Of a stretch of DNA of 55,537 nt, positions 8,715 through 11,289 are shown in pieces. Source of the stretch: Fidelibacterota bacterium (GTDB taxonomy: Bacteria; Fidelibacterota; Marinisomatia; Marinisomatales; TCS55); the NCBI GenBank assembly GCA_029936965.1, contig JAPYRG010000016.1, positions 1-55,537 of the forward strand, written 5' to 3'. Positions within the stretch are counted from its first letter, which is position 1. Every line of letters begins with the position of its first letter. The translations under genes were made by a program, and so were the position numbers. Under the pieces are notes generated by a model. It had not been told where the DNA came from. It saw only the letters and a list, made by a program, of their open reading frames with translations, and did not search any database.

Positions 8715-9686
8715 TTATAGTTTTATAATCTGTCCTTGCTTAGCTAGACTAAAACCTTCTTTAATAAATATATTTGATTCAATACTTGTAGGAAAATTAA
8801 GAGGATTAGTATGATTAAAATGAATAAAATAAATCTTATTCTTTTCTGCTAACGATAGATCTTTAAATAATTCCATACTTTCATTTACAAAAGGATGTGG
8901 TATTTGACTCATATCTCTTCCTGGCAATTCATTCCCATCAAAAAAAGTACCATCTAAAAATAAATAATCATTTGAGTTCACTTCGGAAATAATATTTTTA
9001 TCCCACATATTCCATTTATCAATATCAGGAATAAACATTATTGAATTATTAGGCCCTTTAATCTTATAGCCAACGGTTTCAGAAAATTCATCACGATGAG
9101 GAACTAGAAACGGAACAACTGAAATTTGATCATTAATTTTAATTCTTGATTCATGAAGAATAGTTTCAATTTGTATATTTTTTTTAGTAATCAACTGACT
9201 CCAGGGTCCATTATTATTAAGAAAATTTTTCATTCTTGGCATAGCATATACAGGAATATTATTCGCGCCCATAACTTCATGCCCTAAATGAATCAAACCT
9301 GTATAATGACCAATATGTGCATGGGTTAAGAATACACCAGCAATTGTTACTGGATTACTTGAATTCGTGATCTCATTAATCAAATGTAATTGTTTTGGAA
9401 AATCTGGTGTTACATCAATAATCCAACATTCATTTTCCACATTATCTACAATTGCAATCGAAGTTACCATCTGTTGAAGATCAGGTTTATTTTTAACTTT
9501 GATACAGCATTTTTTTGAACACCCAGCCTGCGGGTACCCTCCATCTTGAGCGACACCAAGAACATAGATAAATATATCGTCATCAATTAATTGATTATTT
9601 GAAGAGGTATTGCATGAGAAAGCAAATAAGACTACAATAGTTGATATTATTTTTATATAAATGGTTCTCATATCTTGTTTATACAA
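8715..9686 (-). CDS. PqqB-like metallo-beta-lactamase-fold lipoprotein
   Basis: A 323-residue protein with a lipoprotein signal (VVLFAFSC, Cys25; the true start may be Met6). It carries the PqqB-type N-terminal motif LGVAQDGGYPQAGCSKKC (43-60), with several cysteines, and the metal-binding FLTHAHIGHYTGL (His122, His124, His127), where Gly replaces the Asp of canonical HxHxDH. Downstream His/Asp ligands are suggested by PHRDEF, PDIDKW and HFNHTNP. The family includes PqqB of pyrroloquinoline quinone synthesis, but no other pqq gene is nearby and export is unusual for PqqB. It is better called a PqqB-like exported hydrolase or oxygenase of unknown substrate. Confidence 0.82.
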   Translation of the reverse strand: MYKQDMRTIYIKIISTIVVLFAFSCNTSSNNQLIDDDIFIYVLGVAQDGGYPQAGCSKKCCIKVKNKPDLQQMVTSIAIVDNVENECWIIDVTPDFPKQLHLINEITNSSNPVTIAGVFLTHAHIGHYTGLIHLGHEVMGANNIPVYAMPRMKNFLNNNGPWSQLITKKNIQIETILHESRIKINDQISVVPFLVPHRDEFSETVGYKIKGPNNSIMFIPDIDKWNMWDKNIISEVNSNDYLFLDGTFFDGNELPGRDMSQIPHPFVNESMELFKDLSLAEKNKIYFIHFNHTNPLNFPTSIESNIFIKEGFSLAKQGQIIKL

Positions 9687-9772
9687 TCATAAAGAATTTA
9701 ATTTTTTGAAAGAGTGAACTTACATAAATATCAATAAATTAGACTATGTACAGATTATAGGTACAATTAATT

Positions 9773-10171
9773 TTGACCATCTTCTTTTCTTGGCATTTTT
9801 CCATTGCAAATAATCTTACATTACATAATAGATACAGCCCTCAAAATAGAGAGCTTCTTGATGAAGAAGAAGTTAGCATTATAAATGAAATTAAATCTAT
9901 TGATCAACATCTTGAATTAGTGAAAGCATATCCAAATCCTTTTAATGCATCTATTAATATTACTTATACAATCAATCATCGTTCAAACATACATCTGAAT
10001 ATTTTTGATCTAAACGGAAGATTAATTACAAATCATAATCTTGGAATGAAACAATCTGGAGACCAATACCTGTATTGGTCTCCAGATTGTTTCATTAGTT
10101 CAGGAACTTATTTATATAGTATAGAAAGCGAAAAAAATATTATTAATGGGAAAATATTATATCTTAAATAG
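9773..10171 (+). CDS. Small protein with type IX-type C-terminal sorting domain
   Basis: Read from a TTG at 9773 this is 132 residues: a hydrophobic export segment, about 35 acidic residues, and then a sorting domain starting AYPNPFN, with IFDLNGRLI, an SSGTYLYSI strand and the ending GKILYLK. Almost nothing besides the sorting domain is present, so there is no obvious cargo. The natural start appears to be the ATG at 9746, which gives MYRL, then TAG (9758-9760), then VQLILTIFFSWHFSIAN; with the TAG read through this would be a normal signal peptide. The gene may therefore be a recent pseudogene, use the weak TTG, or carry a sequence error. A perfect inverted repeat sits in the domain. It is convergent with the redoxin gene. 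Confidence 0.6.
   Translation: MTIFFSWHFSIANNLTLHNRYSPQNRELLDEEEVSIINEIKSIDQHLELVKAYPNPFNASINITYTINHRSNIHLNIFDLNGRLITNHNLGMKQSGDQYLYWSPDCFISSGTYLYSIESEKNIINGKILYLK
10045..10096. repeat. Perfect 25-bp inverted repeat within a coding region
   Basis: The arms 10045-10069 and 10072-10096 are exact reverse complements separated by 2 bases. They lie inside the sorting-domain gene, and the reading frame stays open and domain-like through both arms (KQSGDQYLYWSPDCFISSG). No T run follows, so it does not look like a terminator. It could fold as a 25-bp RNA hairpin or a DNA cruciform. Confidence 0.95.
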
Positions 10172-10177
10172 TGTAGA

Positions 10178-10771
10178 TTAGTTTTTGAATTTAATCCCAC
10201 AACCAAGTGCTTTAGTTGATGCATATTTAATATCATCTCCAGTAAGCATAGCATCAATTGCATTGGCAACGTATGGTTTTTTTACTTTCCTTGCTTTAGA
10301 CGCATTATCATCCACTGCCCCACGATAAACAAGTTCATCATTTTTATCAAATAAATATATATGAGGTGTCCTAGATGCTCCGAATTCTCGAGCAAGTTTC
10401 GATCCTTCATCCATCGTATAGAAAAAGTTGTAGTTATTATTTTCAGCATGTTTCTTCATTTCATCCATACTATCTGATGATCCAAAGTTCATTTCATTTG
10501 AATTTATAGCAATTACACCTATTCCTTTTGGTTTGTATTTTTTTGCTAATTCAACATATCTGTCTTCCCATTTGATCACCCATGGACAAGTATTGCATGA
10601 AAAAATAACCAATAAACCATTTTCCCCTTTTACATCACCTAAAGAAATATTCTTACCGCTAATATCTAGCATTTTTATATCTTCTAATGGTATCTTGGAC
10701 CCTAGATTTATCTCTTTCGCTTGCACATTAAAACTAATAAGTAATGTAGCTAAAGTAATTAAACGCATCAT
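10178..10771 (-). CDS. Exported thioredoxin/peroxiredoxin-like protein (CxxC)
   Basis: A 197-residue redoxin-fold protein with a signal peptide (about 1-18, ending NVQAKE). The active site FSCNTCPW gives Cys59 and Cys62, the CxxC of the thioredoxin-family group that usually reads CNHCPY. The SRTPHIYLF stretch supplies the cis-Pro loop. It is expected to act as a thiol-disulfide or peroxide reductase in the periplasm. The Shine-Dalgarno AGGAG (10777-10781 on the complement) overlaps the stop of the upstream TGA-containing TlpA-like gene 8 bases away, so the two are coupled and may work as a redox pair. The gene has a double ATG (10771 and 10768). Confidence 0.9.
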   Translation of the reverse strand: MMRLITLATLLISFNVQAKEINLGSKIPLEDIKMLDISGKNISLGDVKGENGLLVIFSCNTCPWVIKWEDRYVELAKKYKPKGIGVIAINSNEMNFGSSDSMDEMKKHAENNNYNFFYTMDEGSKLAREFGASRTPHIYLFDKNDELVYRGAVDDNASKARKVKKPYVANAIDAMLTGDDIKYASTKALGCGIKFKN

Positions 10772-10779
10772 ATTAACTC

Positions 10780-11268
10780 CTACGAATTTATTGCTTTTTT
10801 AACCGCTTCAATGAATCTCTGTTCATGATGCGAATTCTCCCAAAAATCTACGATAGAACCTGACAATTTTCCAAATACAATAGTAAATGGAAGAGTACCT
10901 GTCCAATCTCCATATAAACTATTAATAAACTCTTCATCAGGTTGATCTTTTATATATGCTTCTCCTTTAAAATTCATCTTTTTTAAATAATTGATAACAT
11001 CTTTTTCCTGCTCAAGCCAATCCGCGCTTACAAAAATTACCTTAAGATCTTGATGGTATTTTTCTCCTAAATCATATATAAACGGAAACTCCGCTATACA
11101 CGGTCCTCACCATGTTGCCCATACATTAATTAAAACTGCTCTCTTCCCTTTTTCTAATGCTGCAGCATCAAGCACATCTTGAGCAGTTACTCGAACAAGA
11201 TACCCTCTATCACAACCAATAAGGATAAATATAAAACTTATAAATAGTATCTTATATAGCTTGAACAC
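10780..11268 (-). CDS. Candidate selenoprotein: TlpA/thioredoxin-like lipoprotein with UGPC active site
   Basis: Reading through one in-frame TGA (11107-11109, codon 54) gives a complete 162-residue thioredoxin-fold lipoprotein from a GTG at 11268: signal peptide with lipobox ILIGC, then INVWATW-TGA-GPCIAEFP, VIFVSADW, and the cis-Pro segment TGTLPFTIVF. The TGA sits exactly where TlpA/ResA proteins have the first Cys of WCGPC. No other stop or frameshift occurs, and the downstream half keeps normal family features. TGA is an ordinary stop elsewhere here, for example in the gene ending at 1544. The best reading is selenocysteine, giving a U-x-x-C thioredoxin; a TGT/TGC to TGA nonsense mutation or a sequence error is the alternative. 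Standard gene callers would report only 10780-10977, starting at an internal Met. Confidence 0.72.
11074..11101 (-). promoter_or_regulatory. Candidate bacterial SECIS element after the in-frame TGA
   Basis: On the minus strand, 5 bases after the TGA, a hairpin forms with a 12-nt arm (11101-11090), a 3-nt loop GTT (11089-11087) and a 13-nt arm (11086-11074). It makes 12 pairs (three G-U) with one bulged U. The apical loop begins with G, 17 nt after the TGA. A short loop, a G among the first two loop bases and this spacing are features described for bacterial SECIS elements bound by SelB. AT-rich DNA makes chance hairpins common, but the four loop-closing pairs are CGGA/TCCG. Confidence 0.55.
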
Positions 11269-11289
11269 TATAATTAATTATTCTGACAA

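Follow-up and report, generated by a model that had tools for sequence, protein, structure and literature searches.

A 25-bp perfect inverted repeat in a decaying gene of a Fidelibacterota bacterium, probably perfected by template switching

A stretch of 55,537 nucleotides from a Fidelibacterota bacterium (contig JAPYRG010000016.1 of assembly GCA_029936965.1; hereafter the window) contains a perfect 25-bp inverted repeat that is best explained, with a probability that we put at roughly 0.8, as an older quasipalindrome homogenized by polymerase template switching and tolerated in a decaying gene. The left arm (AATGAAACAATCTGGAGACCAATAC, positions 10045 to 10069, forward strand) and the right arm (GTATTGGTCTCCAGATTGTTTCATT, positions 10072 to 10096, forward strand) are exactly complementary at 25 of 25 pairs and are separated by the dinucleotide CT (10070 to 10071). 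The initial annotation had described this repeat as far beyond chance, and the calculation bears it out: from base composition, about 1e-8 such repeats are expected per window and about 4e-7 per genome (2.14 Mb). Against a background of 378 kb of other stretches from the same genome (G000, a draft assembly of 50 contigs) together with the window, 434 kb in all, it has no equal: every other exact short-spacer inverted repeat, in the window and in the entire set, is shorter. The runners-up have arms of 14–18 bp and are mostly terminator-like, with T runs. A search for further copies, proposed in the initial annotation, found the arm sequence to be single-copy in G000 at up to three mismatches, and no exact match was present in a viral contig collection; a dispersed repeat or mobile-element end is thereby dismissed. 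Neither is the palindrome a general trait of sorting-domain DNA, given that among 54 homologous domain regions the longest inverted repeat with a short spacer has a mean length of 5.8 bp and a maximum of 11 bp.

The palindrome lies within a TTG-initiated frame (9773 to 10171) that stays open across both arms and in which the type IX sorting domain is recognized by PF18962 (E = 1.5e-8) and TIGR04183 (E = 5.7e-10). The continuity of frame and domain pattern through the arms is thus as originally described, but the statement that the repeat sits inside a coding sequence needs correction. Comparison with intact orthologs in two genomes of the same genus (G002 and G005) shows that the frame belongs to an internally deleted remnant (9745 to 10171, forward strand) of a gene for an ancestral protein of ∼686 residues, which in its intact form contains LVIVD-like repeats, a choice-of-anchor-D-like domain, a redoxin domain, and the sorting tail. 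From 5′ to 3′, the remnant retains the original ATG, a TAG at codon 5, a signal peptide-like stretch, the deletion junction, the type IX sorting tail, and a TAG stop; the start region reads ATGTACAGATTATAG, in which codon 5 is the stop. The junction (9853 to 9863, forward strand) joins NRELLD to EEEVS at a CTTGATG direct repeat, the matching copies of which are 1626 bp apart in G002, and the ∼1.63 kb missing from the ancestral gene was removed in frame. The deleted part was absent from both G000 and the third same-genus genome with the locus (G004), and no intact copy of the gene was found elsewhere in G000. In G004, the ortholog has been deleted further, with the start joined directly to HLNxFDLNG. 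An intact type IX sorted protein is not encoded here, as the tail is present but codon 5 is TAG and the cargo domains are gone. In a small sample, dN/dS between G000 and G004 is ∼0.41 for the remnant (0.27 with the arms removed) and 0.12–0.19 for neighboring genes (n = 2). The stop at codon 5, the deleted cargo part, and the further loss in G004 identify the host frame as the leftover of a decaying gene, even though the tail frame is still open.

The remnant is flanked by the same genes in all four genomes that cover the locus. Upstream is a gene for an MBL-fold protein (8715 to 9686, minus strand), which partially matches PqqB (TIGR02108) at 116 bits, short of the cutoff of 245, and downstream is a redoxin gene (10178 to 10771, minus strand); the orthologs in G002, G004, and G005 adjoin this same pair. 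The next gene (10780 to 11277, minus strand) is TlpA/thioredoxin-like and has an in-frame TGA at its active site (WATW-TGA-GPC) that probably encodes selenocysteine, an arrangement that ORF callers would miss or split. The 50 nt that begin at this TGA fold into a hairpin that has GGAGU near its tip and resembles a bacterial SECIS element, and G000 carries a tRNA-Sec that scores above cutoff. The intact orthologs of the remnant (L017, 3688 to 5748, and L016, 1378 to 3426) likewise have an in-frame TGA in the redoxin active site (FFSPG-TGA-PVC), which is probably selenocysteine. With its type IX sorting tail, the intact ortholog is a candidate secreted selenoprotein that has been lost in G000 and G004.

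The history of the palindrome was reconstructed from a codon alignment of the locus in the four genomes. At the syntenic position, G004 contains a homologous but imperfect palindrome, with a 15-bp perfect core (10053 to 10088 in the window) around a 6-nt loop and with the same CT spacer. The palindrome is absent from G002, G005, and all other genomes of the family that were searched. The arms pair at 25/25 positions in G000, 20/25 in G004 (where one pair is unreadable owing to an N), 11/25 in G002, and 7/25 in G005, an increase that follows the order of relatedness suggested by the identity of the neighboring MBL gene to that of G000 (90% in G004, 76% in G002, and 64% in G005). Between G000 and G002, the arms differ at 25/48 sites and the flanks at 10/100 (Fisher p = 5e-8); between G002 and G005, arms and flanks diverge about equally. 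Both arms align in frame with the orthologous codons, and the flanks run on without duplication.

Comparison of these homologous domains, which the initial annotation had recommended for dating the right arm, reveals that this arm was rewritten toward the left. G000 and G004 differ at four sites in the right arm and at one in the left. At three of the right-arm sites, G004 agrees with G002 and G000 is derived (CAT to TAT, TAT to TGT, and the second base of TCT to TTC), a polarization that leans mainly on one outgroup, with N bases present in both the G004 and G002 sequences. All three derived bases pair with the left arm, as does the fourth, unpolarized one. In the left arm, polarization by G004 and G002 shows no change specific to G000; the lone difference there (ATG in G000, ATA in G002, TTG in G004, and TTA in G005) has no firm polarity and costs G004 a pair. 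On the G000 branch, the right arm changed at 3/25 sites and the flanks at ∼3/101, a modest excess if taken alone. The locus thus displays the features by which template switching is recognized, namely an imperfect form in a relative and clustered derived changes that are complementary to the other arm.

These observations are consistent with the following sequence of events. In the common ancestor of G000 and G004, the sorting-tail DNA would have come to form an imperfect inverted repeat with the 15-bp perfect core, perhaps after the gene had begun to decay. Later, in the lineage of the window, the polymerase probably switched template inside this pre-existing quasipalindrome, such that the left arm served as donor in the latest switch and was copied over the right arm. 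A single such event would account jointly for the right-arm changes (CAT to TAT, TAT to TGT, TCT to TTC) and would render the repeat perfect over 25 bp; the alignment points to copying from left to right and is compatible with either an intra- or an inter-strand switch. Toleration of the rewritten arm would follow from the state of the gene, a remnant that has lost its catalytic and repeat domains to deletion and whose start is interrupted by a stop. A template switch tolerated by the protein was among the origins first suggested for the palindrome; the switch remains the best-supported origin, but "tolerated" is misleading because the host frame is what a degraded gene has left behind.

How the core first arose is less simply explained. 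Inner left-arm sites (17, 19, and 23) seem matched to the older right arm, and outer right-arm sites to the older left arm. A simple single switch does not yield this pattern because changes are needed in both arms, which suggests either repeated switching or the extension of a hairpin with subsequent mismatch repair. In addition, the core is identical in G000 and G004 while the flanks differ at 9/101 sites, leaving room for weak constraint or for mutual correction of the arms. By the latter account, which we consider unlikely, the arms continue to correct each other, and repeated switches in both directions push a dying gene toward an ever longer perfect hairpin. If so, gene remnants could supply new RNA hairpins in bacteria.

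A functional RNA hairpin or protein-binding palindrome, the other possibilities raised in the initial annotation, found no positive support. A hairpin under selection might act as a 3′-end structure or attenuator, either on the minus-strand transcript that runs out of the redoxin gene, the stop of which is 82 bp from the palindrome, or on the transcript of the remnant itself. Such a role would fit the very stable fold (−42.6 kcal/mol as single-stranded RNA, z = −8.7; −27 kcal/mol as DNA) and the unchanged core. However, a T-tract is absent beside the stem on either strand, and the palindrome is not listed by a terminator scan; it is therefore not an intrinsic terminator. Rfam matches to the palindrome are all below threshold (29 bits at best, against a cutoff of 77) and involve unrelated microRNA and sRNA models of the kind that any long hairpin yields, so a known RNA family is likewise rejected. 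Moreover, the structure is conserved in only two of the family genomes searched, four or five unpaired positions are tolerated in G004, and the changes between G000 and G004 run one way, with no double-sided compensation. We therefore regard a selected hairpin as unlikely.

The older quasipalindrome could also have been perfected by chance, through point substitutions that arose independently in a gene under relaxed constraint. All four right-arm differences between G000 and G004 are transitions, which makes serial point mutation less improbable than random changes would be, and the elevated dN/dS of the remnant (∼0.4) relative to its neighbors indicates relaxed constraint. Nonetheless, the probability that four random arm substitutions would all restore pairing is only ∼1e-6 to 2.5e-5, depending on the transition bias, and we judge this explanation to be rather improbable.

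Long, perfect dyad symmetry might alternatively mark a DNA site for a dimeric protein such as a regulator, recombinase, or origin protein. Perfect arms of 25 bp are unnecessary for most protein sites, and this one is single-copy in G000, has changed in sequence between sister genomes, and lies inside a gene remnant, all of which render such a function very unlikely. Fold-back chimeras yield perfect inverted repeats, and an artefact of assembly or amplification had been named as a potential refutation, the window being part of a 50-contig draft. It is highly improbable because the imperfect homologue occurs at the syntenic place in an independent assembly (G004), and chimera formation is also at odds with arms that align with orthologous codons between unduplicated flanks.

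Template switching between the arms of a quasipalindrome thus remains the preferred reading. The mechanism is already known, and the palindrome adds a new and well-resolved natural example from bacteria: related genomes preserve one inverted repeat at both its imperfect and its perfect stage, and the direction of copying is visible. It also cautions that long perfect palindromes in genes need not be functional elements, and that several amino-acid changes at a locus such as this would be counted as independent in a standard substitution test.

In E. coli, quasipalindrome-associated template-switch mutation is well established from the thyA hotspot and lacZ reporters (PMC7202029 and references therein). 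There, as in the window, an imperfect repeat is made more perfect with the other arm as template; the change described here differs in being a natural, fixed, multi-base one in an uncultured marine bacterium, recognized by comparison of genomes. Template switching has also been put forward as the origin of perfect stems in RNA, creating and maintaining hairpins (Monttinen and Loytynoja 2022, PMC8794818). In both settings perfect stems arise or are repaired through a single mutational mechanism, with no need for compensation step by step, although a functional RNA is not indicated for the palindrome of the window. The mitochondria of Nematomorpha harbor numerous palindromes of up to 284 bp in protein-coding genes (PMC6649704), which share with our case a long perfect inverted repeat within an open coding frame, whereas the window has a single instance, in a remnant. 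In coding genes of wild yeast, template switching takes place between inverted-repeat arms and has, for example, extended 5-bp arms in REG2 to 16 bp (Abraham and Hazkani-Covo 2021, PMC8604942). The palindrome of the window differs from the yeast cases in its 25-bp arms, bacterial host, eroding gene, and spacer that is not inverted, but shares with them a homogenization of arms in coding DNA that produces clustered non-synonymous changes and keeps the reading frame (PMC8604942).
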